From the IMG/VR virus record IMGVR_UViG_3300042691_020122, positions 1 through 25,439 of that record: a DNA stretch of 25,439 nt; one strand, written 5' to 3'. Positions 1-21,906 of the stretch are shown here, in pieces. Below the pieces are notes generated by a model. It ran no database searches. It saw only the letters and a program-made list of their open reading frames with translations, and was not told where the DNA came from. The translations under genes were made by a program, and so were the position numbers. Position 1 is the first letter of the stretch. The number at the start of each line of letters is the position of its first letter. This stretch comes from a virus.

Positions 1-47
1 CCTAACTTGAATTCGCCCGCAGAAACTGCGGAATAACACAGTAACAG
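1..47 (-). promoter_or_regulatory. attI: attI-like integron recombination site and intI upstream region (partial)
   Basis: Read on the minus strand, this stretch ends at the window edge with AAGTTAGG, which fits the first six bases of the integron core site GTTRRRY. Before it lie two direct GTTA repeats (GTTACTG and GTTATTC), like the integrase-binding direct repeats of attI1. Position fits too: attI normally lies just upstream of intI, with cassettes on the far side. A perfect 6-bp inverted repeat with a 3-base loop (17-31) sits between the repeats and the core. The core is cut by the window edge, so the cassette side cannot be seen. The assignment rests on short motifs plus position. Confidence 0.5.
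26..41 (+). promoter_or_regulatory. Putative LexA (SOS) box in front of intI
   Basis: CTGCGGAATAACACAG fits the CTG-N10-CAG form of gammaproteobacterial and betaproteobacterial LexA operators, and the right flank (ACAGTA) matches the E. coli consensus edge. The centre is less AT-rich than the consensus. It ends 6 bases before the intI ATG, where bound LexA would block transcription or early elongation. SOS control of intI by LexA is established for class 1 and Vibrio integrons; for this site it is inferred from the motif and its position. Confidence 0.5.
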
Positions 48-1082
48 ATGAGCGCCGACACCCAATCCAGGCCCCGCACAGCCGCCCACCCAGCCGCAGA
101 GCCAACAGCCCGCGGCATGCTGCAAACGCAGTTTCGGGCGGCCATGCGGGTGCGCCACTACAGCCTGCGCACTGAGCGCACGTACTGGCAGTGGATCAGG
201 CGTTTTGTGCTGTGGTCTGGCAAGCGGCACCCGCGCGACATGGGCGCCGCAGAGATCGGCCAGTTCCTGAGCTGGCTGGCCACTGATGGCGAGGTGTCGG
301 CCAGCACTCAGCGCCAGGCGCTGGCGGCCCTGCTGTTCCTGTATCAGCAGGTGCTGGCGATTGAGCTGCCGTACATCGACAGCATCGTGCGGGCCAAGCA
401 GCCAAAGCGGCTGCCAGTTGTGCTGAGCCGCGAAGAGGTGGCCGCCATTTGGCGGCACATCCCCGACGCCTGCCCGCGCGGCCTGGCCCTGCGTTTGATG
501 TACGGCACCGGCCTTCGCTTGATGGAAGCGCTACGCCTGCGCATGCAGGATGTGGACTTTTCCACAGGCAGCATCACTGTGCGCGGCGGCAAAGGCGACA
601 AAGACCGCACCGTGATGTTGCCGCGGACGCTGGAGCCGCAACTGCGCGAGTTGATGCGCCAGCGGGAGGCCTGGCACGTGGTGGACATGGCCACCGGGCA
701 TGCGGACGTTGAACTGCCGAACGCCCTGCACCGCAAGTACCCACAGGCGCCGCGGCAGCTTGGCTGGCAATTCATTTTTGCCACTGAGCACTACTGCACG
801 TGCCCACGCACTGGCGCCGTGCGGCGGCACCACCTGCACGAAGAGGGCATCCAGCGGCTGATGGCCAAGGCGGTGCAACTGGCCCGCATCGGCAAGCGCG
901 CCACCCCGCACACCCTGCGCCACTCGTTTGCCACCCACCTGCTGCAGGCGGGCTATGACATCCGCACCATTCAGACGCTGCTGGGCCACTCGGATGTTGA
1001 AACGACCATGATTTACACCCACGTGCTGCCAGCCAGCCAGGGCGGCCGGGGCGTCATCAGCCCGCTTGATGCCCTGGCGTAA
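48..1082 (+). CDS. intI: Integron integrase IntI (tyrosine recombinase)
   Basis: A 344-residue tyrosine recombinase that would insert and excise gene cassettes by recombining attI with attC sites. The catalytic set is complete: R157 (GTGLR), H288 and R291 (TPHTLRH), H314 (LLGH) and nucleophile Y323 (MIYTH). The N-terminal core-binding domain shows the typical HYSLRTERTYW and STQRQALAALLFLY stretches. The extra segment at about 222-245 (LHRKYPQAPRQLGW, then a FIFA stretch) separates IntI from XerC/D. Length is close to IntI1 (337), and the C-terminus ends in the usual SPLDAL. ATG at 48 has only a weak ribosome binding site; M24 at 117 is an alternative start. The gene appears intact and functional. 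It lies between an attI-like site and a TPP riboswitch remnant, so it belongs to a chromosomal integron rather than to the phage. Confidence 0.96.
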   Translation: MSADTQSRPRTAAHPAAEPTARGMLQTQFRAAMRVRHYSLRTERTYWQWIRRFVLWSGKRHPRDMGAAEIGQFLSWLATDGEVSASTQRQALAALLFLYQQVLAIELPYIDSIVRAKQPKRLPVVLSREEVAAIWRHIPDACPRGLALRLMYGTGLRLMEALRLRMQDVDFSTGSITVRGGKGDKDRTVMLPRTLEPQLRELMRQREAWHVVDMATGHADVELPNALHRKYPQAPRQLGWQFIFATEHYCTCPRTGAVRRHHLHEEGIQRLMAKAVQLARIGKRATPHTLRHSFATHLLQAGYDIRTIQTLLGHSDVETTMIYTHVLPASQGGRGVISPLDALA

Positions 1083-1111: not shown

Positions 1112-1190
1112 CGCCTCGCTAGGGGTGCTGGCTGCGGCCGGCTGAGAAAGTCCCTTTGAACCTGAGGCGCCGTTGTTGGCGCAGGCACAC
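1112..1190 (+). promoter_or_regulatory. TPP riboswitch (thi box), apparently broken in its 3' half
   Basis: The conserved TPP aptamer signatures occur in order: AGGGGTGC (1121-1128), a P3 stem GCTGGC/GCCGGC with loop TGCG, CTGAGA (1142-1147), TCCCT closing P2, and TTTGAACCTGA (1155-1165). From 1166 the expected GG-TAAT-CC element and final AGGGA are absent. A GCGCC/GGCGC hairpin with loop GTTGTT and a CAGG that can pair with CCTG take their place, and no 3' strand of P1 follows. No thi gene follows either; the next gene is a phage recombinase. The likely explanation is insertion of the phage inside the aptamer, leaving the 5' half here. A natural variant or decayed riboswitch is less likely. 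TPP riboswitches normally repress thiamine synthesis or uptake genes. Confidence 0.75.
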
Positions 1191-1215
1191 CGCGTTTACG
1201 TGGCGTGCATGAGGT
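1160..1215. other. attL: Candidate attL (serine recombinase crossover junction)
   Basis: The riboswitch consensus is lost between about 1165 and 1186, and the recombinase gene starts at 1247. Large serine integrase genes usually sit next to their own attP half-site. The stretch holds an imperfect palindrome (CACACCGCG, TTTA, CGTGGCGTG at 1186-1207; 7 of 9 positions pair) and the GCGCC/GGCGC inverted repeat at 1167-1182, as expected for half-site recognition. The other junction is outside the window, so the core dinucleotide cannot be fixed and the borders are approximate. Confidence 0.4.
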
Positions 1216-1246
1216 AAGCCCCGCGCAGCCGATCTAAACTCAGGCG

Positions 1247-2854
1247 ATGACGCCACGGGTTTACAGCTACATCCGATTCAGCCACGCGCGCCAGGCCGCC
1301 GGAGCCAGCACCGAACGGCAGGCAGCCTATGCCAAGCGCTGGGCCGACGAGAACGGGCTGCAGCTCGATGCCGAGCTGACGATGCGCGATGAGGGGCTGA
1401 GCGCCTACCACCAGAGGCATGTGAAGGCCGGCGCCTTGGGCGCGTTCCTGCGCGCCGTCTCGGATGGGCTCATCGCCCCAGGCAGCGTGCTGGTGGTGGA
1501 GGCCCTGGACAGGCTCAGCCGCGCCGAACCGCTGCAGGCTCAGGCCCAGCTCGGCAGCATCATCAATGCGGGCATCAGCGTAGTCACGGCCAGCGATGGG
1601 AAGGTGTACAGCCGGGACAGACTCAAGGCCAACCCCATGGATTTGGTCTACAGCCTACTGGTGATGATCCGCGCGCACGAAGAGAGCGACACCAAGAGCA
1701 CCAGAGTACGCGACGCCATCCGGCGCCAGGTGGACGGCTGGAAGGCCGGCACATACCGCGGCCTTGTGAGCTACGGCCCCACCCCGAGCTGGCTACGCCG
1801 CGCAGGCGACCGATGGGAGTTTGTGCCGGAGCGTGCCGAGGCAGTGCGCCTGGCCGCGGCCATGTGCCTGCAAGGCGCTGGCACAGCGCGCATCGCCCAG
1901 GCACTGCATGAGCGTGACCTGCGCACCAGTGATGCCCCACCCACCAGCGGCGCCCTGGTGCGCCTGTTTGCGCAGCCAGCCCTGATGGGCGACAAACACC
2001 TGCAGCTTGATGGCACAGAGCACGTGCTGCAGGGCTACTACCCGCCGCTGCTGGAGCCAGCCACCTGGCAGGCGCTGCGGGCCGCGGCCGACGCCAAAGG
2101 CCGCAAGGCCGTGCGCGGTGAAATCCCGTCCATCCTGACGGGCTACGGCATCACCACCTGCGGGTATTGCGGCTCAGCGCTCAAGGCGCAGACCATGGCC
2201 AGCAAGCGCAGGGCTGACGGCAGCCTGGCTGACGGCCACCGCCGGCTGCAGTGCGTGCGCGTCAACGCGGGCGACGGCTGCCCGGTGCCCGGCAGTTGCT
2301 CAGCCGCGCCCATCGAACGCGCCATCATTCGCTATTGCTCGGATGTCATCAACCTGCAGAGGCTCTATGACGGAGACAGCGCCGCCGGCCCGCGCGCTGT
2401 AGTGGCCCAGCTCGCCGATGAGGCGCAGCGCATCGAGAGCCAACTGCAGCGGCTGACGGACGCGCTGCTGACGACAGAGAGCCCGCCCGAGGCATTCGTA
2501 CGCAGGGCCAAAGAGCTGGAGCAAGCAAAGGCCCGCTCTGATGACGCCCTGCGCGCGGCAGAGGCTGAGCTGCAGGCCGCAGCAAGAGCCGGCACCGATG
2601 GCGCACACCTGCGCTGGCGCTCCATTGCTGATGGTGTGGAGGCGCTCGACTATGACGCCAGGATGCGCGCCCGCCAACTCGTGGCCGACACGTTTTCTCG
2701 GCTCACCATCTGGATGCAGGGCACCAGGCCGCACAGCAAGCGCAGCGGGCCCATTGACGTGATGCTGACAGCCCGAGGAGGGCTGACGCGCTGGCTGCGG
2801 GTGCAGCCGTCAGGCGATTGGGTAGCCGGCGAAGAGGCCGACAGCGCCGGGTAG
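1247..2854 (+). CDS. Large serine recombinase (phage integrase)
   Basis: A 535-residue large serine recombinase, the probable integrase of this prophage. The N-terminal resolvase domain (about 4-150) contains YSYIRFS with predicted nucleophile S12 and R10, then VLVVEALDRLSR (81-92), matching the conserved D-R-L-SR motif. A recombinase domain follows (about 165-290), then a zinc ribbon with C305, C308, C336 and C345, and a coiled coil at about 395-455 of the kind that controls integration versus excision. ATG at 1247 has a weak AGG-type ribosome binding site. It is transcribed towards the lysis genes, which are convergent, with only five bases between the stop codons. No directionality factor is visible in the window. 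The protein looks intact. Confidence 0.93.
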   Translation: MTPRVYSYIRFSHARQAAGASTERQAAYAKRWADENGLQLDAELTMRDEGLSAYHQRHVKAGALGAFLRAVSDGLIAPGSVLVVEALDRLSRAEPLQAQAQLGSIINAGISVVTASDGKVYSRDRLKANPMDLVYSLLVMIRAHEESDTKSTRVRDAIRRQVDGWKAGTYRGLVSYGPTPSWLRRAGDRWEFVPERAEAVRLAAAMCLQGAGTARIAQALHERDLRTSDAPPTSGALVRLFAQPALMGDKHLQLDGTEHVLQGYYPPLLEPATWQALRAAADAKGRKAVRGEIPSILTGYGITTCGYCGSALKAQTMASKRRADGSLADGHRRLQCVRVNAGDGCPVPGSCSAAPIERAIIRYCSDVINLQRLYDGDSAAGPRAVVAQLADEAQRIESQLQRLTDALLTTESPPEAFVRRAKELEQAKARSDDALRAAEAELQAAARAGTDGAHLRWRSIADGVEALDYDARMRARQLVADTFSRLTIWMQGTRPHSKRSGPIDVMLTARGGLTRWLRVQPSGDWVAGEEADSAG

Positions 2855-3409: not shown

Positions 3410-3660
3410 CACGCACCACCCGGGCCACGGGCCTGGAGCGCACTGGCCACGGCCTTGATGGCATCCACAGCCGATGTGCCGACATTCCCACCCATGTAGT
3501 ACAGCACGGTGGACGTGGCCCACATCACGAGCTGCCCGCCGTCAATCCAGGCGCAGTGCCGCGCCACCATGGCGCACGCCAGGGAGACAACAGCCAGCCA
3601 GAGCTTGCGGCTGCGCCATGCCGCGCGCCCCTTTGCTGGCACACCGCTTTCGGCACTCAT
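3409..3660 (-). CDS. Holin-like small membrane protein
   Basis: An 83-residue protein with two hydrophobic segments (about 19-35 and 44-60) joined by a short loop (CAWIDGG), with a basic stretch before the first segment. This is the form of a class II holin, which makes membrane lesions that release or activate the endolysin. The ATG at 3660 overlaps the TGA of the transglycosylase gene by four bases (ATGA), and its own stop overlaps the Rz start, so it is embedded in the lysis cassette. The open frame extends upstream to 3795, but that part lies inside the transglycosylase gene and looks like a shadow. The upstream transglycosylase also carries holin-like membrane segments, so this may be a second holin or an antiholin. 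Confidence 0.65.
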   Translation of the reverse strand: MSAESGVPAKGRAAWRSRKLWLAVVSLACAMVARHCAWIDGGQLVMWATSTVLYYMGGNVGTSAVDAIKAVASALQARGPGGA

Positions 3661-4613
3661 GACACAAGCGCCCGGTACTTGGGCAGCTCTTTGAGCATCA
3701 CGTGGCGGGAATGGTCCCGGTTGATGTCGCAGGCGCTGCGCTTGCCGTAGAGTGCGGCGCGGCTCTTGGTGCAGGTGTGCTCGACGTGGCCCCACCAGCG
3801 CTGCGGATCACACCCGGCTTTGACCTGGCAGGCCCGCCTGTCGCTCTGGACGCCGCCCAGGCCGCCGTTGTACGCGGCGTTGGCCATGGTCAAACGCTCC
3901 CACGGGTCAGACACGGCACGCAAGGCCTGCCAGTTGCCACGGGACATCAAGACCACCGCCCGTATCTGCAAATCAGGCCGCTGATAGACGTTTGCCCAAC
4001 TCCATTCACGCAACGCCGGGTGCCTGTCGCGCATGTCGGCCAGGCTGTCAAAGCGCAGCGAACCATCCGGCCGCCATGCCCTCGTGATCTGGCCCAGGCC
4101 GGCGCCTTCCTCGCGCGCCGTCTTGAGCTGGGCCGTAGGGCTCCAGCAACTGCGCAGTGACGGGCAACCGCTTTCATGGGCGATCAGTGCGGCGGTGTAG
4201 TGCGGCCATTGCAACTCTGGCCAGTGCTGCCGAGACTCAGCCAGGATGATGGGCGCAAACTTGGCAGCGCGCGGGTCAGGCGTCTGCGCGTGGGCGCGGC
4301 CGGCAAAGAGGCCGACCACAGCATTGAACACAATGCTCAGCGCAATGAGAGCCAGGCCGGCACCGATTGGGTGCTCACCAGCTTTGGCGAACAGTCGGCG
4401 GGCATCCGCCTCCTTGTAATCGTGCGTGGCCTTGCGGCCCCAGTGGGCCAGCAACAGCGCCACCATGCCAGAGCCAATGCCCAGCAGCCACAGGCCAGTG
4501 CTGGTGCCCTTGTCGGGGTCAGTGACCAGCAGGCCAACGATGGCCGCCAGAGAGCCGCCCACCATGAATTTGTACCGGAAGCGCATGGCCTTCCACCGCT
4601 CAACGATTTGCAT
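3657..4613 (-). CDS. Holin-domain / lytic transglycosylase (SLT) fusion endolysin
   Basis: A 318-residue protein that would cleave peptidoglycan during lysis. Residues 1-105 contain three hydrophobic segments (about 17-31, 41-57, 83-103) with RYKF, TDPD and GAGLALI motifs resembling a family of small phage putative holins. An AHA-Q sequence (107-110) looks like a signal peptidase site. Residues 115-260 are a lytic transglycosylase domain: E147 in AHESGC is the probable catalytic glutamate, followed by GLGQ (172-175) and AYNGG (247-251). The ATG at 4613 is chosen because GGAGG lies six bases upstream; the open frame to 4763 overlaps another small gene and has no matching character. Holin and transglycosylase are usually separate genes in related phages, so a fusion, or secretion through the third segment, is inferred. 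Confidence 0.82.
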   Translation of the reverse strand: MQIVERWKAMRFRYKFMVGGSLAAIVGLLVTDPDKGTSTGLWLLGIGSGMVALLLAHWGRKATHDYKEADARRLFAKAGEHPIGAGLALIALSIVFNAVVGLFAGRAHAQTPDPRAAKFAPIILAESRQHWPELQWPHYTAALIAHESGCPSLRSCWSPTAQLKTAREEGAGLGQITRAWRPDGSLRFDSLADMRDRHPALREWSWANVYQRPDLQIRAVVLMSRGNWQALRAVSDPWERLTMANAAYNGGLGGVQSDRRACQVKAGCDPQRWWGHVEHTCTKSRAALYGKRSACDINRDHSRHVMLKELPKYRALVS

Positions 4614-4767
4614 TTGCAACCTCCACTGGTTGACCCTTGAAAACCGGCGACAGCACGCCGCCGAGCTTGATGGAATACGCCAGCGCCAGGCCGTAATCCG
4701 TGAAAAACTCGACCGTGGCGCAGTTGATTTCAACGACCCAGGCAAATGGCTTTGACCTATCAATCAT
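4600..4767 (-). CDS. Small hypothetical phage protein (55 aa)
   Basis: A 55-residue open frame from ATG 4767 to TGA 4600 that is easy to miss. It starts MIDRSKPFAWVVEINCATVE and ends PVEVANANR. It overlaps the stop of the upstream gene by four bases (ATGA), and its last 14 bases overlap the start of the transglycosylase gene, whose ribosome binding site lies inside it. The tight coupling on both sides and the otherwise empty gap it fills argue that it is real. It has no clear membrane segment and no recognised domain. Its place at the head of the lysis genes may mean a part in lysis timing, but nothing in the sequence shows a function. Confidence 0.7.
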   Translation of the reverse strand: MIDRSKPFAWVVEINCATVEFFTDYGLALAYSIKLGGVLSPVFKGQPVEVANANR

Positions 4768-4984: not shown

Positions 4985-7900
4985 TTATCTTTTGATTGCG
5001 GCCCAGCGGAATTGCAACTCTGCCCAAAACACGGACATAACCCACCCTGACTGTTGAGTGGGTTCGGCAAAGACCGTCATAGTCAACGTCTGCCCGGCCG
5101 GCACAGTTGAATTGGCAACAATGGTAGCCGGCATCAACTCAGACACGTTCGGCGAAACCTTTTTGTAATCAATCGCTTCGGAGCCAGTAAGTTGCAGACC
5201 GAAAAACGACTTGACTGCGCCTCCACCCCCCAAATCCACCTGTGATCTGCGGTGCACAAACGCCAACGTGATTTCCACAACAACCGGCCCCGTGGTTGTG
5301 TTTGTCCAGGCCGTGGTGGCGACTGTGTGGCGGCCAGCCCCCACTGTTGTACTGCTCACCGACCCATCGGCCGGCGTGGAGAAATAAGCGTCAGTCACAG
5401 CGCCTGGCGCTAGTTGTTGCGTGGCAATATCCCGCACCGCAGACATGGGCCCAAACACCACACGGTCTGCCCTGGCGCCAACGTCCAGAAAACTCGAATC
5501 GAGATACAGCGGCTGAGTAATCACCGCAGCCACCGAACGAAACGCAACACCGTTTTTCAGGTAACGCACCGTGGCGCCGTCATACGTCACCGCCAGGCTG
5601 TCGCCGGCCGCATACGTAGTCAGCGACCCCAGCAAAACTCCACTTTCCGCCACGAACAAAACGCCGACCTCGACATATATTGCATAGTCAAGAGTTTGCC
5701 AACTATCGCTAAATGTCGGGTCAGTGTTTAATCCAACCATAAACCGCAAGTTGGCGGCGACAGGCGCAAAACTCACGAAAGCGCCGCCTGCGTAGCTTTC
5801 ACGCGAGTATGCGGCGGCATCCCATGAGCCAGGCGATGACGTCTTTTCGATGCTGTTGCCGGCAATTGCCAGCCCTCCGCTGGCCACCAGCGTGACGTCC
5901 CTCGTTGCATTGTCAGAAGGCCGGCCGGCGCCTGTCACCTGGGGCCAAAGCGCACGCTTTCCGGCCTCGGTCGCCACCGCCCTGAGCAACGCCTCACGCG
6001 CCGCGTAGTAATCGCTCCACTTGGCCTGGTCAACGGCCGGTGTAATGGGCGTGTCTGTTGTCGTGTCAGCCCACCCAGGCGAGAGCGAGCTGAGGTAGCT
6101 GCCCAGCGCACTGTGAGCCGCTGCGTAGGTGTTCCCCAGGGTCGTCAGGCCATACGCCGATGCTTGAGCGACCACACCCGCCACCTCGGCCGCAATTGCA
6201 TTCCATTCCCGAATCACTGCCGGCTTTTCTGCCGCGTCTAGATACCCGTTGCTGCGCATCGTGGCCAGGGCACTCAGCGCACTGGTGGCATTTGCCGACG
6301 CTGTGTTTGCCGTGCTCAAAGCGTTGGCCGCATTTGCCTCTACGTTCTGCGCCAGTGTGCCGCCCACCAGCGTGCCGGCCGGAGCACCGACCGTGGCTCC
6401 GTCTTGCGGACGGCCAGAGCCAGTGACCGAAGACCATACGGCACGCTTCCCGGCCTCCACCTCAACACCGCGCAGCAAAGCCTCGCGCGCCGAGTAGTAA
6501 TCACTCCACTTGGCTTGGTCAACAGCAGGCGTAATAGGCGTGTCTGATGTGGTATCAGCCCACCCAGGCGAGAGCGCGCTGAGGTAACTACCCAGCGCAC
6601 TGTGAGCCGCTGCGTAGGCGTTCCCCAAGGCCGTCAAACCATACGCCGACGCCTGAGCGACCACGCCAGCCACCTCGGCCGCAATTGCATTCCATTCCCG
6701 AATCACTGCCGGCTTTTCTGCCGCGTCGAGAAAGCCATTGCTGCGCATTGTTTGCAACGTAGACAACGCGCTCGTGGCATTCGTCGCTGCCGTGTTGGCG
6801 GCCTGAGAGGCGGCCTGCGCAGCAGCTTGAGCCGCACGCGCTTCGGTGACATCAACCAGGATCAGGTCTGTGAAGCCCTGCTCTACTGCGCTTGCACCAG
6901 GCCCCGCTGAATACTGCATCCAGTATCCAACCTGCATGTAAGCCACATTGGACGGAATAGGGCGCGATGTTCCAGCGCCAAAATCCGCTCCAACACGCAC
7001 CCATTGGTTTTGCGGCGTGATGGCACCACCGTACACATACCCCGCAAATGTGCCGCCCCAGCCTGTTGCCGCCCCAAACACCTCAACGCCCGCAGCCGTG
7101 AACATGCGCACAAACAAATAACTGTTTCTGGTGTTGCCAGTCTGCGCCCAAGCCAAAGTAGTAAGGTTATAGGTGCGTGCGCCGTCGGCGGGAATCTTGC
7201 GCTTATCTGTGACCACCACATCCTGATTGGAGCCCGTACCCTTTGAGCCCCAGTAGTGCGTGCCGATCATGCCCGCCGCAGCAGATCGGAGCCGATAACT
7301 CGACGCAGACGCCGCGTTGTGCGAACGATCCCACGCCAGCTCATCTGCAATGCCGGGGTCACTGTTCAGCACGCTGCCGCCAGTGCCCGACCTGGCCGGC
7401 ATCCTGGCCACGAGCTGCGGGCTCCACTGGCCGTGAATGCCAAGCGCGTTCACAAAGCGCGCACGGAACAGGTAGTGCACTCCAGCATTGAAGCCCGTCA
7501 ACGTGGTTTCTGCAGCGTTGCCTGGCGCTCTGGGCGCAGCGATCCAATCACCCGCTGGCAACGCACTGGCCGCCAGCCAATACTGAATCTCAACGCCACC
7601 GGAGGAAGACACCGAGCGATCAGCCGGGGCAGACCACTGCACGCGCGCCCGCGTCACCGACGTGCCATCACTCAGCAGATCGGTGCCGGCCGTCACCGCC
7701 AGGGGGCCCATCGCCGGCACATCCCCAGGGTCAGGCAGCGAGGTGTTGGGCGTCACATCCAGCACGGCAAAAGTGCCGTCTGGCTGATAGATGGCTGCCG
7801 CGGTTTCCTTCAGCGTCAGGGTGACACCGCCGGTCATTGAGAACTGCCAGTCAACCAGCTCGAAGGTTTTGGCCACCCAGCCGAACCGCGGCAGGGTCAC

Positions 7901-9412
7901 CGCCACGACGTCGAACAACTCCAGCGCAAAGGCCCGCAGGTTGCACGTCAGCACCACCGTGAGGGCGTTGCGCGCATCGCGCATAAGCACGCCACAGACG
8001 TGCTGCGCGTGGATGGTGTCGGTGACGCCACCCAGCGTAATCTCACGTGGCAGCTCGCGGCCGTCTGCGGTGATGTAGGTTGCCGCGCGCAGCTCAGGAG
8101 CCTGCACCACCACGTATTTCTGCGCCTTGTCCGATATGTTGGCGCGGTAGACGTTGACGGCCTCATCAGCCGGCGGCTCAGGCACAACCTGCACCGGCTG
8201 GGAGTCAATCACCCAATCCTCGGTGATGGTGGCCACAGGCGCACGGTAAGCGCCAGCCACTACCCGCAGTTGGCCACCGGCCCAGCCAGCTTTGCCGGCC
8301 ATGGCTTCCACCATCTCTTGAAAGGAGCCCCAAGGGTCACCGTCATCCAGCTTGCAGACGATGCCGCAGGTGTACAGCGGCAGCGTCTGCGTACCGCCAG
8401 CCGTGGTGAACACTTGCGACACGTCGCAGGCATTGGCTGCAGCGTTGAACGACGCAGCGCCGATATCTGACGCCGATACGCCACCACCGCGGCTGTACAG
8501 CGCCCAGTCTCTGGCAATCAGCGCAGGGTTTTCAGTCCACACCGTGTTGCCGGTCCGGGGATCAAGCACGCGAGCACCGCGCAGCACGGCGCTGATGTCG
8601 GGGATGCCTGTCGGGAACACATCCGGGTTGAACTCAAGGTCAACCACCAGGCACGCGATACCCGCGAACCGATGGGCAGAAGTAATCAGGTCAGGAAACA
8701 GCGGCTGCAGAACCGTGCTGAGGTTTTGGCCAGGCGCCCCAGTGAAGGTACGCACACGGACATAGCTCTGCGTCGTTGATGCCTGCCAGGAAACCGTGAC
8801 CGACGCGCCAGGCGCCCCACCGCTGGCCGTTACCACAGAGCCGCTTACAGACGTCTGCAAGGCCAGCTCGTCAGCAGAACTGCTGGCCTGCTGGACCACT
8901 GACACCGATGTGATCGTGGCACCTGCGCCTACGTTGTAGGACAGATTGCCGGCACCATCGAGCACCGCCTGAGCGCTGCTACTCGGCCGATTGGTCTGCA
9001 AATACGGAGCGGTCTGCACCCAACCTTCTGCGTCCAGCGTGACCAGCTCGTCACCAAAGTACACGCCCTCGATGGCGTCTACCTCATGGCCAGCCAGCGC
9101 AATCACGAGGGTGTAAAACTGCTTGTCAGCCCCGCGCGTGGCTTTGAACAAGATTCCGTCTACGTTGCGCACCCGGCCGTAGCAGCGGCTGCGTGGGCCG
9201 CTGACGGTGGCCGTCATCACCAGCCGGTCCTCCAGGCTGGCGTTGTAAGCCTCGATTGCCTTGCGCTTGGCCTTGCGCCGCTGGTAGTTCCCAACGGCAA
9301 TGCTGCCCGCTGCAAACGCCGCATATGTCAGCGCCGTGATCTGCGCGGCCGTCAGAACGCTGGTCGCAGTCAGCGTGGCCGTGGCAATGTATGCCGCTAC
9401 TGCTTGTGGCAC
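4985..9412 (-). CDS. gpJ-like tail-tip hub / central fibre protein (host specificity)
   Basis: A 1475-residue tail-tip protein combining a hub and a receptor-binding fibre, like lambda gpJ or the megatron of gene transfer agents. Visible parts: hydrophobic alanine-rich N-terminus (5-43), tail-hub region (about 85-545), fibronectin III-like region (about 560-665), possible carbohydrate-binding region (about 715-850), alanine-rich helical region with two near-identical 163-residue units, a lectin/SPRY-like region (about 1174-1322; GNSIEKTSSPGSWDA, then DGATVRYLKNGVAF), and a beta-rich C-terminus. Two GTG codons lie at the 5' end; the one at 9412 is chosen because GGAGG (9422-9418) sits five bases before it, whereas the GTG at 9418 overlaps that site. 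It overlaps the upstream DUF6950 gene. The C-terminal part has lower GC, suggesting exchange of receptor-binding domains. Confidence 0.9.
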   Translation of the reverse strand: MPQAVAAYIATATLTATSVLTAAQITALTYAAFAAGSIAVGNYQRRKAKRKAIEAYNASLEDRLVMTATVSGPRSRCYGRVRNVDGILFKATRGADKQFYTLVIALAGHEVDAIEGVYFGDELVTLDAEGWVQTAPYLQTNRPSSSAQAVLDGAGNLSYNVGAGATITSVSVVQQASSSADELALQTSVSGSVVTASGGAPGASVTVSWQASTTQSYVRVRTFTGAPGQNLSTVLQPLFPDLITSAHRFAGIACLVVDLEFNPDVFPTGIPDISAVLRGARVLDPRTGNTVWTENPALIARDWALYSRGGGVSASDIGAASFNAAANACDVSQVFTTAGGTQTLPLYTCGIVCKLDDGDPWGSFQEMVEAMAGKAGWAGGQLRVVAGAYRAPVATITEDWVIDSQPVQVVPEPPADEAVNVYRANISDKAQKYVVVQAPELRAATYITADGRELPREITLGGVTDTIHAQHVCGVLMRDARNALTVVLTCNLRAFALELFDVVAVTLPRFGWVAKTFELVDWQFSMTGGVTLTLKETAAAIYQPDGTFAVLDVTPNTSLPDPGDVPAMGPLAVTAGTDLLSDGTSVTRARVQWSAPADRSVSSSGGVEIQYWLAASALPAGDWIAAPRAPGNAAETTLTGFNAGVHYLFRARFVNALGIHGQWSPQLVARMPARSGTGGSVLNSDPGIADELAWDRSHNAASASSYRLRSAAAGMIGTHYWGSKGTGSNQDVVVTDKRKIPADGARTYNLTTLAWAQTGNTRNSYLFVRMFTAAGVEVFGAATGWGGTFAGYVYGGAITPQNQWVRVGADFGAGTSRPIPSNVAYMQVGYWMQYSAGPGASAVEQGFTDLILVDVTEARAAQAAAQAASQAANTAATNATSALSTLQTMRSNGFLDAAEKPAVIREWNAIAAEVAGVVAQASAYGLTALGNAYAAAHSALGSYLSALSPGWADTTSDTPITPAVDQAKWSDYYSAREALLRGVEVEAGKRAVWSSVTGSGRPQDGATVGAPAGTLVGGTLAQNVEANAANALSTANTASANATSALSALATMRSNGYLDAAEKPAVIREWNAIAAEVAGVVAQASAYGLTTLGNTYAAAHSALGSYLSSLSPGWADTTTDTPITPAVDQAKWSDYYAAREALLRAVATEAGKRALWPQVTGAGRPSDNATRDVTLVASGGLAIAGNSIEKTSSPGSWDAAAYSRESYAGGAFVSFAPVAANLRFMVGLNTDPTFSDSWQTLDYAIYVEVGVLFVAESGVLLGSLTTYAAGDSLAVTYDGATVRYLKNGVAFRSVAAVITQPLYLDSSFLDVGARADRVVFGPMSAVRDIATQQLAPGAVTDAYFSTPADGSVSSTTVGAGRHTVATTAWTNTTTGPVVVEITLAFVHRRSQVDLGGGGAVKSFFGLQLTGSEAIDYKKVSPNVSELMPATIVANSTVPAGQTLTMTVFAEPTQQSGWVMSVFWAELQFRWAAIKR
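5951..6300 (-). repeat. Direct repeat unit 2 in the tail hub/fibre gene
   Basis: This stretch nearly repeats 6440-6790 at an offset of 489 bases (163 codons). Both encode EKPAVIREWNAIAAEVAGVV and a SDYY.AREALLR segment. Most differences are third-position or conservative, so the copies are old enough to have drifted but are held to similar protein sequence. Such units are known in gpJ-like proteins as helical spacer modules. Confidence 0.9.
6440..6790 (-). repeat. Direct repeat unit 1 in the tail hub/fibre gene
   Basis: Partner of the repeat at 5951-6300; it encodes the first of the two helical units (about residues 875-991 of the tail protein). The in-frame offset of 489 bases means that recombination between the copies would remove or add exactly 163 residues without breaking the reading frame. 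Confidence 0.9.
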
Positions 9413-9837
9413 GTGCACCTCCAGGCGCGCAGCACGGCGTCAGGCCGCACTACCGCCAAACCAACCGCCGCCTGTGCCAGCCAGGCATCACCACCCTGCA
9501 CCACCAGCGCAGGGCCCTCGTCACTCACCACCAGGCCGACGTCACCAGCTTGAGCCAAAGCCGGCACGATTTCCTCGCCCAGCGCTTGCTCTGCCAGCGC
9601 CTCGATAGACGTGCCTCGCAGCACGCGGCCAGCCTGCAGAGCCGATGAGTACACGCCACGCAGCGGCGCCGCCGGGTCGTGCCCGGTGACGGCCAGCACG
9701 GCATCGGCGGCCCACAAACAGCAGTCACGCACACCCCATTCAAACGGCTGTCCCGCCCGGTCATTTACTAGGCCCGCCAGGCGCATTTGCCAATCGGGCA
9801 AGCGCAGCGCAGGCACGCGCAGAACCGCCGGGGTCAC
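9397..9837 (-). CDS. DUF6950 / NlpC-P60-like tail-tip protein
   Basis: A 146-residue protein at the place occupied by the NlpC/P60 peptidase gene (gp14) in GTA-like tail modules, between the DUF2163 gene and the gpJ-like gene. FEWGVRDCCLWAAD (32-45, with C39/C40) matches the WG-DC motif of this fold, and a GDVGLVV stretch follows at 99-105. No convincing catalytic histidine follows that stretch, as in DUF6950 proteins, so it may be structural rather than enzymatic. The GTG at 9837 is chosen because it overlaps the upstream TGA (GTGA) with a G-rich ribosome binding site; the open frame reaches 9864 with another GTG but no better signal. Confidence 0.78.
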   Translation of the reverse strand: MTPAVLRVPALRLPDWQMRLAGLVNDRAGQPFEWGVRDCCLWAADAVLAVTGHDPAAPLRGVYSSALQAGRVLRGTSIEALAEQALGEEIVPALAQAGDVGLVVSDEGPALVVQGGDAWLAQAAVGLAVVRPDAVLRAWRCTCHKQ

Positions 9838-10388
9838 TTGCGCCCCCACGAGGCCGCCGGCCACACATCGCGGTGCGTGGACTGGCTCACCAAGTACTCC
9901 AGCGCACGGTCACCGGCCGAGATGGTCTGCTGGTCACCGTCGGTGTAGCGCAAAGGCTTTGGGCGGCTGAAGATGCGAGCCATGGGCAACGCGCTGACGC
10001 CGATGGTCGGCCCATTGATCGTGAGCTGGTCCAGCACCAAGTTGCCGATCAACACGGCATCCTCCACGGCATGCGTGACGGCATTGAGGATGGCCAGGCG
10101 AATGGTGCACGCGCGCCCGCGGGCCGTCTGCGAGAGAGCGAGGGACAAGTTTTCGCTGGGCACGCCAGACAGCGTGAACTGCAACGCCTGCGCATCTCCG
10201 CTGGTGTCGCGCACGACATCGAGCGCCCCCAGTGATCCGGCCCCGAGGTATGTGTTGCCGCCCCAGACGATGGACACCGGAGAGCTGGCCAGGCGCAGCG
10301 CTGGGCTGAACGCCATGTCAACCAGCAGGGCCACCGTCACCTGGGGAGCCGAGAGTGCCGCAGCCGCGGCTGTTGTCATCGTGCGCAT
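9834..10388 (-). CDS. DUF2163-like tail hub protein
   Basis: A 184-residue protein at the hub position of a GTA-like tail tip (GTA gp13 equivalent), between the DUF2460-type and DUF6950 genes. The N-terminal part (VTVALLVDMAF, then VSIVWGGNTYLGAGSLGALD) is typical of proteins that build the baseplate hub ring and have a short beta-strand start. It is shorter than GTA gp13, covering mainly the N-terminal domain. ATG at 10388 follows the upstream stop by three bases; a second ATG at 10379 is possible. The family call rests on local resemblance and gene order. Confidence 0.72.
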   Translation of the reverse strand: MRTMTTAAAAALSAPQVTVALLVDMAFSPALRLASSPVSIVWGGNTYLGAGSLGALDVVRDTSGDAQALQFTLSGVPSENLSLALSQTARGRACTIRLAILNAVTHAVEDAVLIGNLVLDQLTINGPTIGVSALPMARIFSRPKPLRYTDGDQQTISAGDRALEYLVSQSTHRDVWPAASWGRK

Positions 10389-10391
10389 GGC

Positions 10392-10988
10392 CTACCAAAC
10401 CTCTTCAAGGTCAAAGGCCGCGCCATCGATCATGCCGGGCGCATGCATCACCGTGGCCAACCAAGATGGCAGCACAAACTCCCCGGCCGGCCTATCCCAT
10501 CGGACCTCCGAACCACTGGCAATTGACGCTCGCACGCGATGCACCACGGGCACAGAGCCCGCGCCTGCGCCGTTCAGTTGGAGGTCTGAGGCGACCATGA
10601 ACATTTGACCGCCGCATCCCAGCATGTCACCGGCACGCAGCGTGCTGTTGGCCGTGCCCCCAGTGATGGGCAACGCGGTGGCGCCACGCGACACGCTGGC
10701 CGACAACGTAGGCGACCCGCGCATGGTGCCGATGGGGAATGGACGGCCGAAGTGCCAAGCCCGCACGCGGTGAACGCCGCCGCGGAGTTGGAAAAACAGC
10801 GCCTCGACCCGACCAGCATTGACGCGGCGCGCCTGCGGCAGGGTGACGCTCATCACCCAGCGCTCCCCCACAAAGTCCACCACCTGCAGGTTGCCGTTGT
10901 AGGCGCCTCGGAATTGCTCACCGGAGCCCTGGCTGCCGATGGCGCAGCGCGCTGGCGTTAAGGCCGCCGGCCAGTCAAAGACGGCCAT
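10392..10988 (-). CDS. Distal tail-like protein (DUF2460-type position)
   Basis: A 198-residue protein directly after the tape measure gene, the usual place of the distal tail (Dit) protein that links tail tube and hub. The N-terminus (MAVFDWPAALTPARCAIGSQ) and the SVTLPQARRVNAGRVEALFF segment resemble phage proteins annotated as DUF2460/minor tail protein. No enzyme motif is visible. Its ATG at 10988 overlaps the tape measure stop (ATGA), so the two are translationally coupled. The role is inferred mainly from synteny with GTA-like tail modules. Confidence 0.65.
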   Translation of the reverse strand: MAVFDWPAALTPARCAIGSQGSGEQFRGAYNGNLQVVDFVGERWVMSVTLPQARRVNAGRVEALFFQLRGGVHRVRAWHFGRPFPIGTMRGSPTLSASVSRGATALPITGGTANSTLRAGDMLGCGGQMFMVASDLQLNGAGAGSVPVVHRVRASIASGSEVRWDRPAGEFVLPSWLATVMHAPGMIDGAAFDLEEVW

Positions 10989-13036
10989 CAGACCACCCCT
11001 TTCTGTCGCAGCATCATCCCCACGCGGCCCTCAATCTGCTGCTGCATGAGCTGCAGGGCCGTCACGAGCTCGTTGCGCGTCACCCCGGCCTGGACGTTGT
11101 AGGTGTTGTAGGTGACCGGCTGCGCGCCGCCAGAAGAAGCAATACCCAGCCGGCCATCCTTGCCACGCTTGAGCGGCATGATGGCCTCAGGGCCAGCCTC
11201 GCCCATGAGGCCCATGGAGCCGCCGCGCATGGGGAAGTACGTCGGCGCACCCACCACAGTGCCGCTGGCAAACGCCTTGACCGGCACGGGGGCGCCATTG
11301 AGAAACGCGCCGCCCTTTGCGAAGCCGAAGAGGCTTGCAATGGTGCCCAGGATGCTGCCGCCCACGCCCTTGCCTTTGGGGAACAAGTACTCCCCAACAT
11401 CCGCCGCGATGGCCTGCGCCGCCATGTCCAGCAGCATGTTGCCCCACAGCTTGCTGATGCTGTCAAAGTCGCCCTTCAGCGTTGCTTTGATGGTGGTTCC
11501 CAGGCTGTCCTGAATGTTGCGCTGGAACTCTTCAAAGAACACCGTCATGCCATCGAGCACCGGCTGCACCTCTTGAGGTATCTCGCCCATGCGCGCCTTG
11601 ACAGCTTCGCTGAATTTCTCGATGGCTTCTGTGCTGCCGACCGCACCCAGGCGGCCCTGCTCATAAGCCTCGGCCAGCAATTGCATGTCACTGCGCAGCG
11701 TCTCAAGCTGAGCGCTTGGCGTGGCTTGAATCAAGCTGTTCAAGCGCTCCATCTGCCCGTTGAATTTGCCCATTGCTTCCTCGGTTGGAATGACCCAACC
11801 GAACTCCGTCAGGCGCTCACGTGACAGTGACTCCTGCAGCTTGCCGGCAAACGCCGATTGGATCGGCTCGCCACGAATTGGCGCTTTGCCTTTCCCCGTG
11901 TCTGGCAGCCTACTAAGTGGCGCGTTTGCTGTGGCAGGCCTGGCTCGCGCATCCCGCGCGTCATACACGCCCGCGGGGAAAACAGCGTCAGCACCTGCTC
12001 GCCGCCCCAGCAACTGCTCGGAGCGCTTATCAATCTCCTGCCGCGCGGCAGCAGCATCACGCACTACGGCCTCTCGAATCTCCTTGAAGCCCGCGAAGTC
12101 GCCACGAGCCAAGGCCGCGCCCTGTGCAGCAATGGCGCCAGCCTCAACAGCAATTTGCTTGAAGACGTACACGACATTGGCGCCCAGCACCGTCAGCGCT
12201 TCAAACGGGACCATGATGCCCGCCATGAAACTGCCGTCTTTGCCGATGGCGTTGACACCACTCAGCCGATCAATCATTTCGTTGAGGGTTGGCAATGCAG
12301 CCAGCGCAATGGATTGGCCAAAGCCTTGCACCGAAGCCGACAGCCGGTCGATGTTGGCGCGGTACTCTTTTGCAGCCTTGATGCCCTCGTCTGACATCAC
12401 CTTGCCCGCACGGGCCGCCTCGTCTCCTAACCTGCGGAACTCCGTGCCGTTGTCCCGCAACAGCGGCAGCAACAACGCAGAATCACTGGCGATGGCCTCC
12501 ATGTAGAAGGTCATCTCGTTTTGCGAGATGTTGGCTTTTTGCAGGCTGTTGACGTAAAGCTGCAACGCCTCAGCGCCGCCAAGGTTCCGGAACTGCTTGG
12601 CAGTCACACCGACCCGTGGCGCAATCTTCTCGAAGAAGTCGGCCATGGGGCCCGCGCCCGTCTGCAGGAAATCTCCCACCTTGTCCTGCACATCCTTCAG
12701 GATGCCGGCCAGCTTGTCCTGCTCAATGCCTGCGGTCTTTGCGCCGTAGGCCATGCGCTGGAATGTGTCGCTGCTGGTGCCGCTGAGTTTGGCCAGGCGC
12801 TCAATGCTGACGGCCGCTGTGGCAGTCTGGTCAACAAACGCCGTGATTTGCGACACCACCGCAGTACCACCAAATACGCCCGCCACCGATGCGGTGGTGG
12901 CTTTCAACTTGGCCCAACGCGCCTCCACCTGCGCCGCATGCTTTTCGTGCATGCGCGTGGCCTGGTCCAGGTTCTGCTGGAGCGTGGCAACCTTGGCAAT
13001 CAGGTCAATGGAGAGCGTAGCAAGGGCAGCAGTCAC
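10988..13036 (-). CDS. Tail tape measure protein
   Basis: A 682-residue tape measure protein that sets tail length and passes into the host envelope at DNA ejection. The N-terminus (about 15-50) is a predicted coiled coil (LQQNLDQATRMHEKHAAQVE), residues about 150-260 are helical, and the C-terminal stretch GSMGLMGEAGPEAIMPLKRG is the hallmark end of lambda-type tape measure proteins. At roughly 0.15 nm per residue the tail would be about 100 nm (inference from length alone). It starts with GTG at 13036, overlapping the stop of the frameshift extension (GTGA). No lysozyme or peptidase domain is evident. Confidence 0.92.
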   Translation of the reverse strand: MTAALATLSIDLIAKVATLQQNLDQATRMHEKHAAQVEARWAKLKATTASVAGVFGGTAVVSQITAFVDQTATAAVSIERLAKLSGTSSDTFQRMAYGAKTAGIEQDKLAGILKDVQDKVGDFLQTGAGPMADFFEKIAPRVGVTAKQFRNLGGAEALQLYVNSLQKANISQNEMTFYMEAIASDSALLLPLLRDNGTEFRRLGDEAARAGKVMSDEGIKAAKEYRANIDRLSASVQGFGQSIALAALPTLNEMIDRLSGVNAIGKDGSFMAGIMVPFEALTVLGANVVYVFKQIAVEAGAIAAQGAALARGDFAGFKEIREAVVRDAAAARQEIDKRSEQLLGRRAGADAVFPAGVYDARDARARPATANAPLSRLPDTGKGKAPIRGEPIQSAFAGKLQESLSRERLTEFGWVIPTEEAMGKFNGQMERLNSLIQATPSAQLETLRSDMQLLAEAYEQGRLGAVGSTEAIEKFSEAVKARMGEIPQEVQPVLDGMTVFFEEFQRNIQDSLGTTIKATLKGDFDSISKLWGNMLLDMAAQAIAADVGEYLFPKGKGVGGSILGTIASLFGFAKGGAFLNGAPVPVKAFASGTVVGAPTYFPMRGGSMGLMGEAGPEAIMPLKRGKDGRLGIASSGGAQPVTYNTYNVQAGVTRNELVTALQLMQQQIEGRVGMMLRQKGVV

Positions 13037-13664: not shown

Positions 13665-14306
13665 TCAGGCAGCAACCACAAAGCCCTTCACGCGCACCGT
13701 CAGGCTGCCCGTGCCCAGCGCGTTGACGCCCAGGCTTTCACCGGGCATGGACGGCTCGCCATAAAACACCCGCTTGGCGCCATCGGCCAGCGTGATGTCA
13801 AACACCAGCGACACGCCAGCTTTGGCAGCGTCGATGATCGCCTGCATGCCAGCAGACGGCGCGGTGTAGCTCTTGACGTTCAGCGTCACGTTTTGGGCCG
13901 CCAGGAGCCCGTTTTCATTGCGCGCAATCACATCCACCAGACACGTGGTGTCCAGCTCGGAAGCCTCGCCACCGCCAACGCTGTACTGGTCCACCTCGCT
14001 CAGCACGTGCCAGGTGCTCACGGGCACAAACTGGCACGAGCCGCTGAAATCGCTGTAGCTGCTGGTGTTCAGGCCGCGCAGCTCAAAGGTGCCCGTGGCC
14101 TGGTTGGCGACGATGGCGGCCTGGCCTTCGAGCTGCACCATGCCGGTGACGTTGGTGAAGTAGCCAACCGCGCCATTGGCCAAGCCGTGTGCAGCACTGC
14201 TGGCCACGCCCGGGTTGGCTTTGGTGACGGCGGTAACTGTCTTGGCGGCTGTCATGACGTTGGCCACGCGCACAGTTACCCCGCGGCCCTTTGCAAAGTT
14301 AGGCAT
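13665..14306 (-). CDS. Major tail tube protein
   Basis: A 213-residue protein that would polymerise into the tail tube. It starts MPNFAKGRGVTVRVANVMTA, lies just before the chaperone genes, and is beta-rich. A segment at about 20-85 (VTAVTKANPGVASSAAHGLA, then YFTNVTGMVQL and FELRGLNTSSYSDF) is a small module common in phage tail proteins that resembles the FCCH-type insertion and may decorate the tube surface. ATG 14306 is chosen because GGAG lies six bases upstream; the open frame to 14336 adds ten residues without support. It is separated from the tail terminator gene by 56 bases in which no other signal is evident. Confidence 0.85.
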   Translation of the reverse strand: MPNFAKGRGVTVRVANVMTAAKTVTAVTKANPGVASSAAHGLANGAVGYFTNVTGMVQLEGQAAIVANQATGTFELRGLNTSSYSDFSGSCQFVPVSTWHVLSEVDQYSVGGGEASELDTTCLVDVIARNENGLLAAQNVTLNVKSYTAPSAGMQAIIDAAKAGVSLVFDITLADGAKRVFYGEPSMPGESLGVNALGTGSLTVRVKGFVVAA

Positions 14307-14362
14307 TTGATGCTCCAGAAGAATAGCCAGCCACAAACAGGCCAGCGGGTAAGAAACTCAAC

Positions 14363-19971: not shown

Positions 19972-21138
19972 TCAGGAGGCCGGCGGCGTCAGGTCACCAC
20001 CGCGCAGGGCGGCCGGCACTTCGCTGGCGATCGCCAGGCGGCGCTCGGCGCGCAACGTGATCAGGTTGCGGGTGAAGTTGTCGCTGTCGCTCTCCGACAT
20101 GGCCACGGTGACATCCTCGCGGTTGTAAATCGTGCCGTGCTGGCGGAAATCACCGACCGCGAACGTGTCGGCCGCCATGCCCACAGACTGCACAACACGC
20201 ACGCCGAACAACATCGGGTTGCCGGCCATGTCATAAGACACACGCACGGCGTTGCTGGCGGAGGTCAGCAGCTCGATTTCAATCTGAGCCCAGTCGGCTG
20301 CATTCAGCAGGATGGCCGAAGCGGTGTAACCCGCGTTGAACAGGTCGGCGATGACGCGACGAATCAGCACCACGCGGGCCAGCGTAGAGCCCAGGGCACC
20401 AGACAGGTAGCCGTGGGGCGTGAAGTTGCCGGAGCGCATCAGGCCAGACAGGTTCGGGGCGGTGGCGTTGCCGGAAATCAGTTGGGACTCGACGCGGCGC
20501 TGCACACCGAAACGCATGCGGGTGTCGATGTAGGCAGCCAGGGCAGGCGCATCGCTGGCCAGTTGGCGGCTGATCTTGATCCAGTGGGCAACAGTAGACA
20601 CCGGCATGTTCACCAGGCTGAACGTGATGTCCGTTTCAGGCTTCACAGCGCCTTCGGCCGTTTCTGCCGCGTTGTTCACAAACGACGCTTCACGAGTGAA
20701 CTCGATGGCGTTGCTGCTCGTCGGCACCGACGCATACAGCGACTCGACGGTCAGAGCCGGGAACGCACCAGGGACAATCGCGGCCTGACGGTCAGGCGCC
20801 ACGGTGGCGGCAGCGCCGACCACGGTGTTCTTGATCTCCACCCGGGCACGCATGCCACCGCTTTCAATGGCGCCCTTGTAGAGCGCCGCGCCCACGAACT
20901 GCTTGCCCCACGAATCGCCCTTGGCCTCGCCACCTTCGGGCATGGCGCCACGGCGCTGCTCAAGTTGCAGCAGGCGGTCGGCCAACTCGCGCTGATCCAC
21001 GCCGAGCTTGTCCAGCGCGGCCTTGGTGTCGGCGCTGACCTTGCCCAGGGTCTTCAGCTCGCCCTCGGCCTTCTCCGATTGCGTTTGGAGGGTCTGCTCG
21101 ATGGTTTCGAGACTCTTGAGAATGGTGTCCAGAGACAT
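19972..21138 (-). CDS. Major capsid protein (HK97 fold)
   Basis: A 388-residue HK97-type major capsid protein. Residues 1-70 form a charged coiled coil (LETIEQTLQTQSEKAEGELK, then RELADRLLQLEQRR), the scaffold-like delta domain that the prohead protease removes. The mature part probably begins near 90-105 (SGGMRARVEIKN). Later motifs (NAIEFTREASFVNNAAETAE, HWIKISRQLASDAPALAAYI, then a VTVAMSESDSDNFTRNLITL stretch near the C-terminus) are typical for the family. ATG at 21138 with AAGGA seven bases upstream. It follows the protease gene by 33 bases, in the standard order. The cleavage site is inferred. Confidence 0.95.
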   Translation of the reverse strand: MSLDTILKSLETIEQTLQTQSEKAEGELKTLGKVSADTKAALDKLGVDQRELADRLLQLEQRRGAMPEGGEAKGDSWGKQFVGAALYKGAIESGGMRARVEIKNTVVGAAATVAPDRQAAIVPGAFPALTVESLYASVPTSSNAIEFTREASFVNNAAETAEGAVKPETDITFSLVNMPVSTVAHWIKISRQLASDAPALAAYIDTRMRFGVQRRVESQLISGNATAPNLSGLMRSGNFTPHGYLSGALGSTLARVVLIRRVIADLFNAGYTASAILLNAADWAQIEIELLTSASNAVRVSYDMAGNPMLFGVRVVQSVGMAADTFAVGDFRQHGTIYNREDVTVAMSESDSDNFTRNLITLRAERRLAIASEVPAALRGGDLTPPAS

Positions 21139-21171: not shown

Positions 21172-21906
21172 TCAGCGCACGAGCTGCTTGAAGCGCGACC
21201 GGATCACCAGCCCCGCCACACGCTGCTCAATATCGGCATACGCCTTCGCCTCACTGGCCGCTGGCTCGGCATCCCGCCCAACATGCAGCACCTGCTTGGC
21301 GCGGGCCACCAGCGCGGTGGCGGCCCCTTTGCTGAGGCCGCCTGCGTCCCGCAGAAAGCGCTCGAAATCACGCACGGTTTCCAGCTCGGCAATCGCCTCG
21401 CTCACCGCATCACTTTTGACGGCATCCACCCGGGCCGCACGGTCGGCCGGAAACGCCACCGGGCTGATTTCCATCAGGCTCGACCAGCGTCGGATGACGC
21501 GCCCGGTTTCGGTTTCGTCGTAGTCGCCTTTCTTGACCATGCCGCCAACGCTGAGCCCGTCAAGGGTGCCGTGCTTCATCGCGGCGTACACATCGCGCGA
21601 CAGAGACATATCCAGCGTCAGCTCACCCTCGACAAACAGGCCCTTCTCGTCCTCTTTGGCCGTCAGCCACTTGCCAATTGGCAAGCCCGCAGCGCCACTG
21701 GCGTTGAAGTTGAAGACCGAATGCTCCAAAAACATCTTGGGCATGCCGTTCGTGCGCAGGGTGGACTGAAACGCGCCTTTGACGATGGTGTCTCCATAGC
21801 TGTCAACACCCCCAAACACGCTGGCATAACCCGCGAAGCGGCCGGCGCCGCTGTCGTCCAGCTTCAGCTCCACATCACTGAGAGACAGGCTCTTGCGAAG
21901 AAGCAT
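21172..21906 (-). CDS. HK97-family prohead maturation protease
   Basis: A 244-residue serine protease that would cleave the delta domain from the capsid protein during prohead maturation. The family pattern is present: FAGYASVFGGVDSYGDTIVK near the N-terminus, H62 in the FLEHSVF motif, S119 in LDGLSVGG, and ME-ISPVAFPA (E146). These are the likely catalytic residues. The C-terminal part (175-240) is helical and charged. ATG 21906 is chosen because AGGAGG lies five bases upstream; the open frame to 21954 is a shadow of the portal gene. It overlaps the 3' end of the portal gene by 32 bases. Confidence 0.94.
   Translation of the reverse strand: MLLRKSLSLSDVELKLDDSGAGRFAGYASVFGGVDSYGDTIVKGAFQSTLRTNGMPKMFLEHSVFNFNASGAAGLPIGKWLTAKEDEKGLFVEGELTLDMSLSRDVYAAMKHGTLDGLSVGGMVKKGDYDETETGRVIRRWSSLMEISPVAFPADRAARVDAVKSDAVSEAIAELETVRDFERFLRDAGGLSKGAATALVARAKQVLHVGRDAEPAASEAKAYADIEQRVAGLVIRSRFKQLVR

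Follow-up and report, generated by a model that had tools for sequence, protein, structure and literature searches.

A temperate siphophage attachment site that carries half of a TPP riboswitch and probably directs integration into host TPP riboswitches

Introduction

Phages and islands that integrate in tRNA or tmRNA genes carry a fragment that restores the gene. The Burkholderia phage JC1, a rimO phage, has its attP 41 bp upstream of the gene for its large serine recombinase (LSR) and provides rimO with a substitute start (PMC9144972). Integrons carried by phages, for their part, have already been reported (Qi et al. 2023, PMC9892861). A search of the literature for a riboswitch as phage attachment site, covering also islands and RNA genes, returned nothing, most subscription papers being outside its reach.

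The window analyzed here is a stretch of 25,439 nucleotides from IMG/VR virus record IMGVR_UViG_3300042691_020122, in which an LSR gene, an integron integrase gene (intI), and part of a thiamine pyrophosphate (TPP) riboswitch lie side by side. Based on sequence comparison, the window very probably represents the attP of a temperate siphophage whose LSR integrates the phage into host TPP riboswitches at P4-P5, with the riboswitch being rebuilt at attR.

Results

The att region of the window

The att region lies between intI and the LSR gene (positions 1083-1246; all features of this section are on the forward strand). It contains the 5' half of a TPP aptamer (1117-1165), comprising P2, P3, CTGAGA, and the 5' strand of P4, which was delimited by its match to RF00059 and by alignment to intact copies. 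The motifs AGGGGTGC (1121-1128), CTGAGA (1142-1147), and GAACCTGA (1158-1165) are present, P2 and P3 pair, and the conserved 5' core (AGGGGTG, CTGAGA, GAACCTGA) is retained. RF00059 matched positions 1111-1205 with 29.8 bits (E 0.031) and thus below its gathering score of 54.3; the window copy is a half element, not a complete riboswitch. It aligns at E 7.7e-10 to the intact copy in the same genome and at E down to 1e-10 to TPP riboswitches of other members of the genus, and because of these matches it is considered a real TPP half rather than a chance resemblance. All of these alignments stop at GAACCTGA, the typical intact element in the genus being GAACCTGATTGAGGTAATCCTCGCGCAGGGAAGC.

Following GAACCTGA, an extra 45 bp (1166-1210) form two hairpins, after which the aptamer resumes as GAGGTAA (1211-1217); host and window sequences part only after this segment (GAGGTAATCCTCGCGCAGGGA versus GAGGTAAGCCCCGCGCAGCC). 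Hairpin A (1167-1182) is located at the P4-P5 junction (insert fold -25.3 kcal/mol, z -3.4), and hairpin B (1185-1208), which carries the GTTTA motif of the recombinase P half-site, has an equivalent in 10/10 phage-borne copies. Upstream of the aptamer half, a putative -10 element of a phage-borne promoter (CTACACTGCG, 1103-1108) was recognized by sequence comparison, as it is common to the attP or attR sites of L102, L211, and L218. The first-pass annotation of the window had correctly recognized the TPP half with its P2 and P3 pairing, the LSR gene, and intI, the latter two being confirmed by domain and profile matches. It had also placed the break in the aptamer directly after GAACCTGA, at the start of the LSR gene, which is about 50 bases too early, and had regarded the GG-TAAT-CC element as lost, whereas GG-TAA is present and merely displaced by the two hairpins.

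The predicted attP (1189-1240) consists of a P arm, GAGGTAA, and a P' arm, and forms an imperfect inverted repeat (14/24 symmetric positions, shuffle p 0.004), with CGCGTTTACGTGGCGTGCATGAGG as left half-site and, reversed, TGAGTTTAGATCGGCTGCGCGGGG as right half-site. The putative crossover segment GAGGTAA, corresponding to P5/L5 of the aptamer, is common to attB, attL, attR, and attP, and ends about 30 bp ahead of the LSR gene. The same architecture is found in seven other phages, with GTTTA at about the same place and an arm symmetry of 11-19 of 24 positions (weakest in L102, p 0.08); GTTTA is absent from the left arms of attL sites. The attB, i.e., the P4-P5 arm of the aptamer (CCTGATTGAGG-TAA-TCCTCGCGCAGG), is itself an imperfect inverted repeat as DNA, centered on L5 (8/16, p 0.03), as expected for the attB of a serine integrase. 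The sites thus display the hallmarks of serine-integrase attachment sites, namely, attP inverted-repeat half-sites that are longer than those of attB, and a short common core. A second TPP-integrating element (L092/L093, IMG 3300025303) has attP arms that are nearly perfect repeats (TTATCTTTGTAGG), and its LSR gene lies about 5 kb away from the att site instead of adjacent to it.

The phage contig and its integron

The window corresponds to bases 2-25440 of a 34,391-base contig (C280), which is also an IMG/VR contig. C280 encodes a terminase, an HK97 portal, major head and tail proteins, a tape measure, a tail fiber, an endolysin, and a DnaB helicase, and no host genes were identified on it. 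Within the window, the following genes are on the reverse strand: an endolysin-like gene (3657-4763, phrog_669), tail genes from tail fiber to tape measure (4985-13036; phrog_5616, 2048, 2854), the major tail protein (13665-14336, phrog_584), the major head protein (19972-21138, phrog_10), the HK97-type portal protein (21875-23137; TIGR01537, 238 bits), and the terminase large subunit (23139-24842; phrog_9, 592 bits). An end-to-end overlap of C280, sought as proof of circularity, was not found. In sister phages, the region to the left of the att site is phage DNA with a small gene homologous to L056:7158-7403, which is located near the right end of C280; the attP sites of L102, L104, L105, and L211 all have a homologue of this small gene upstream of the TPP half. 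C280 would then be circular, and the window would be the attP junction of a siphophage genome that is circularized, circularly permuted, or present in tandem. A tandem prophage arising by homologous recombination is possible, and an attP in mid-array would be expected there too; it was dropped as not needed.

The intI gene (48-1082, forward strand; TIGR02249, 431 bits) belongs to an integron integrase clade found in phages and lies beside the phage att end. A probable attI region with the integron core GCCTAAC precedes it (1-47, forward strand; the contig starts one base before the window, exactly with this core), and the first bases of C280, GCCTAACTTGAATTCG, are also found upstream of the intI homologues in L020 and L185. 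Homologues of intI occur in 18 viral loci; in L183, no further gene separates the homologue from the attR of a rimO-type prophage whose LSR is related. Members of this IntI-like clade (L175-L192, L020) are common on phage contigs, where they often adjoin the phage integrase and an att end, and the GCCTAAC core is present upstream of some of these genes and not others. One 60-bp attC-like site (GCCTAAC...GTTAGGC) lies just short of the right end of C280 (L056:9302-9361, equal to C280:34301-34360), and, as far as its motifs allow a judgment by eye, it seems to be oriented as in an array that is read in the direction away from intI; no other cassette contigs sharing this attC were found. These observations point to a single phage-borne integron, with an unassembled cassette array presumably separating the two ends of C280. 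A host integron beside a host riboswitch was considered and dropped: intI, initially taken for a second, unrelated recombination system next to a host site, is a phage gene with homologues at phage ends.

Attachment sites in relatives

Relatives were collected as LSR homologues in IMG/VR and by pattern scans for the TPP 5' half, with the P' pattern scan yielding 10 stretches and a stricter 5'-half pattern 7. At least nine other phage contigs, drawn from different metagenomes and from isolate genomes, show the same arrangement. An empty site is provided by G445 (locus L222), a genome from the same family that has no prophage and in which a cyclase gene, an intact TPP riboswitch, and cytX follow each other; this riboswitch reads ...CTGAGGTAATCCTCGCGCAGGGAAGC and scores 53.7 bits with RF00059 (gathering score 54.3). 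The lysogen L103 is 94% identical to L222 at the DNA level through the aptamer 5' half and departs from it directly after GAGGTAA, into the LSR gene.

Three occupied or phage forms were distinguished. In the attL form (L060/L061, L100, L103), the host 5' half leads through GAGGTAA into a P' arm ending AAAGTAAAC and then into the LSR gene. In the attR form (L060, L100, L101, L093, L218), phage genes, in several cases with a terminator behind them, are followed by the TPP 5' half, the hairpin insert, GAGGTAATCCTCGCGCAGGGAAGC, and a host gene; L093 has the variant GAGTTAA at the core. In the attP form (L102, L104, L105, L211, and the window), phage genes are followed by the TPP 5' half, the insert, GAGGTAA (GAGATCA in L105), the P' arm, and the LSR gene. 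Both junctions are present on one contig in two prophages, those of G086 (attL 101-188, attR 41636-41782) and G112 (attL 48175-48278, attR 1394-1518). The attR of L100 runs from GAGGTAATCCTCGCGCAGGGAAGCTGG into cytX (TIGR02358, under its cut-off), and further attR sites lie ahead of a TonB receptor or cytX in L093, L101, and L218. Because the downstream genes differ, being cytX or a TonB receptor, the shared feature of the target is the riboswitch. Neither a cyclase nor CytX was found next to the TPP element in loci of the window's genus. The attL of L100 (L193, G112:48175-48278) scores 46.8 bits with RF00059, its P' arm resembling the aptamer 3' half; judging from this likeness, the LSR leader of L100 might keep some TPP response.

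Sequence relationships in these relatives reveal attB, attL, attR, and attP with their junctions, together with the LSR linkage, the hairpins, and the clade, and they strongly support integration inside the riboswitch. Catalysis by the window's own LSR and the exact crossover bases are presumed from them.

The recombinase clade

The LSR of the window (1247-2854, forward strand), a phage integrase, has a resolvase catalytic domain and a recombinase domain (PF00239 and PF07508) above cut-off, and a zinc ribbon (PF13408) at 22.1 bits, just under the cut-off of 25.3; this is the domain set of an LSR. In the tree, LSRs with TPP sites form one clade of 13 (SH-aLRT 100), to which the rimO-targeting LSRs are sister. 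Two members, L108 and L112, have no TPP half directly upstream of the LSR gene; the L108 contig has a TPP att site elsewhere. L112:4620 has a palindromic att-like site (TTTAAGTTGAATGCTTGTGG-TAA-GCCTCAAGCACACATGTTAAAG) and no TPP half, and its LSR may have another target. Among 81 genomes of the window's genus, only the window's own LSR was found, and 399 genomes of the order contained only four more homologues at E<=1e-140, none with a TPP site. Most cases of TPP integration therefore rest on IMG/VR contigs, as among the genera searched a TPP-clade LSR occurs only in the window's genome. The window junction had no DNA match among 50,697 GenBank phages.

The host genome

The host genome (G000) contains a single intact TPP riboswitch (C55:2077-2177, 60.9 bits), which precedes a gene for a TonB-dependent receptor adjoining a disulfide-reductase-like gene. 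Since this riboswitch is intact, C280 is not a prophage in the host's own riboswitch: the C55 attB is undisturbed, no attR was found, no host DNA bounds the phage on both ends, and a pattern search of G000 for a 3' aptamer half flanked by phage returned only the intact C55 copy. The first-pass annotation had proposed that a temperate phage uses a TPP riboswitch as attB, which holds for the LSR clade (empty site, attL, and attR in relatives) but not for this locus, an attP with both arms. It had expected the missing aptamer half and a thi gene to the right, and had named an intact riboswitch elsewhere without an aptamer half at the right junction as speaking against its proposal; the latter situation is what G000 presents, and thiC was not detected in this genome (completeness 99.4%). 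None of the prophage-free relatives it had called for was found with the window's own flank, which is phage DNA. As thiC was not detected, the host may have to take up thiamine or its precursors, and a lysogen would then pay dearly if a TPP-regulated transporter were no longer expressed or controlled.

The riboswitch at attR

The rebuilt copies at attR keep all conserved core elements, including UAAU and GCGCAGGGA. An RF00059 search, suggested in the first-pass annotation for the two joined halves, gives 35.7-43.9 bits for the rebuilt attR copies of relatives; like the window half, they stay below the gathering score of 54.3, in their case because of the insert. The P arm folds as a hairpin in all ten phage-borne copies, often after a second hairpin, with z-scores of -1.9 to -6.3 against shuffled full inserts. 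Hairpin A of L102, L211, and L218 has kept its shape, although its apical stem has changed. When five attR leaders were folded at minimum energy, P5 formed in each of them, and P4 (CCTG/CAGG) formed in L060, L100, and L093 but in neither L101 nor L218. In the ten phage-borne halves, P2/P3 positions are 98% paired, P2 being invariant and P3 97% paired with two-sided changes in 4 pairs. Judged from these sequences, the attR sites of L060, L100, L101, L093, and L218 appear to follow the tRNA type of att mimicry, in which an intact host RNA is regained at one junction by means of phage sequence.

Host TPP riboswitches with one or two hairpins at the P4-P5 junction also exist (L065:3885-4009, L067, L068, L201). 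Those of L065, L067, and L068, in which the hairpins occupy the same position as in the window, have no prophage, and the insert of L065 resembles the P arm. Such inserts may be scars of past integration, or natural variants that gave phages their half. Taken together, folds, pairing, and the inserts in prophage-free genomes lend support to a functional rebuilt switch, which presumably still works.

Discussion

Proposed integration route

In the route proposed here, the LSR would recombine the phage attP with the P4-P5 arm of the aptamer, with crossover within GAGGTAA. At attL, the host promoter and 5' aptamer half would be left ahead of the LSR gene. At attR, the phage terminator, promoter, and TPP 5' half would be joined to the host 3' half ahead of the transporter gene (TonB receptor or cytX), the phage supplying the aptamer through the 5' strands of P4 and P5, and the host its remainder together with the gene. 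The P arm, which has to lie between the two halves, would be folded away as one or two hairpins at the P4-P5 junction, leaving the rest of the aptamer intact because of this folding, and the downstream gene would probably keep its TPP control. The thiamine gene that the first-pass annotation saw cut off from its control would thus be served, as in the relatives, by a riboswitch rebuilt from phage promoter and 5' half. That the phage carries a portable half-riboswitch (promoter, TPP 5' half, and a half-site disguised as a hairpin), which rebuilds a working ligand-controlled leader after each integration and lets an important nutrient-transport switch serve as attB with no harm to the lysogen, is considered the more plausible view of its role, with appreciable doubt. 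If so, successive rounds of integration and loss would also account for the hairpin inserts scattered among TPP riboswitches of hosts.

Alternative explanations

The strongest competitor, although still unlikely, concerns function: the TPP half could be a passenger, a host fragment picked up in imprecise excision and not under selection for a working riboswitch, integration simply swapping promoter and leader while the insert kills the aptamer. The sub-threshold Rfam scores of the rebuilt riboswitches and the absence of P4 from the predicted folds of 2/5 attR leaders are in line with this. A mere passenger would, however, hardly be expected to keep nearly all core residues and two-sided P3 changes in ten phage-borne halves, with hairpin-folding inserts in 10/10; the predicted folds moreover keep P5 in 5/5 attR leaders and P4 around the hairpins in 3/5, and the 3' half is conserved in prophage-free hosts whose riboswitches have similar inserts. 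Control of the LSR itself by the 5' half, as a degenerate or variant TPP-like riboswitch that would make integration thiamine-dependent, is much less probable. The half is transcribed toward the LSR gene, the L100 attL still reaches 46.8 bits with RF00059, and P' arms resemble the 3' half (CCTCACGCACGG); yet the window and most relatives have kept neither the UAAU loop nor the 3' strand of P4, such sites score 20-38 bits, and a likeness between P' and B' is expected from a shared recombinase motif.

The window could also be the attL of a prophage in this host's riboswitch, with the intI flank as host DNA and a thi gene uncoupled, as a 5' half does stand beside the LSR gene and relatives do integrate in TPP riboswitches. 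This is very improbable given that the P arm lies to the left of the core, unlike in the true attL sites of L060, L100, and L103, that the host TPP locus is intact with no phage-flanked 3' half, and that the disulfide reductase gene, conserved upstream of the site in hosts, is missing while intI homologues sit at phage ends. A chance resemblance or an assembly chimera, conceivable for a metagenomic assembly, has a practically negligible probability in view of the nine or more other phage contigs with the same arrangement. An attP whose LSR targets host TPP riboswitches is therefore preferred for the window.

Implications and comparison with known systems

Alongside tRNA and tmRNA genes, riboswitches would count among the RNA landing sites of mobile DNA, and the rebuilt copies would serve as a natural experiment on the amount of additional RNA that the ligand-binding arm of a riboswitch can accommodate. 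The findings also suggest that phages replace the promoters and leader halves of host nutrient genes. A serine-integrase clade with a defined, conserved target (TPP P4-P5) could serve genome engineering, and a concrete route is opened to searching for prophages at other riboswitch classes.

As far as could be found, the riboswitch as phage attB is new, while phage integrons and tRNA-restoring elements are already known. Compared with the phage integrons of Qi et al. 2023 (PMC9892861), the present contig likewise combines intI with a probable attI on a phage, together with an attC-like site, but it represents another phage group and an intI clade beside a phage att end. Compared with the TPP riboswitch of RF00059, P2, P3, the core residues, and the 3' half at attR are alike, whereas attP is without a 3' half and the rebuilt copies differ by one or two extra hairpins at the P4-P5 junction. 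JC1 and other rimO-integrating LSR phages share a homologous LSR (54%), an att site near the 5' end of a transcription unit, and a gene kept intact by phage replacement; their target, however, is the coding 5' end of rimO rather than an RNA element, and their LSRs form a separate clade. As JC1 replaces the rimO start, members of this integrase family may habitually make good the damage done at attB. With integration into tRNA and tmRNA genes, the system has in common a structured-RNA target with an inverted-repeat arm, a phage att that carries the replacement half, and an RNA rebuilt at one junction. It differs in having a cis-acting riboswitch as target and a serine recombinase as enzyme; moreover, it is the 5' half that is replaced, along with a promoter, and a recombinase arm is retained within the RNA in the form of a hairpin.
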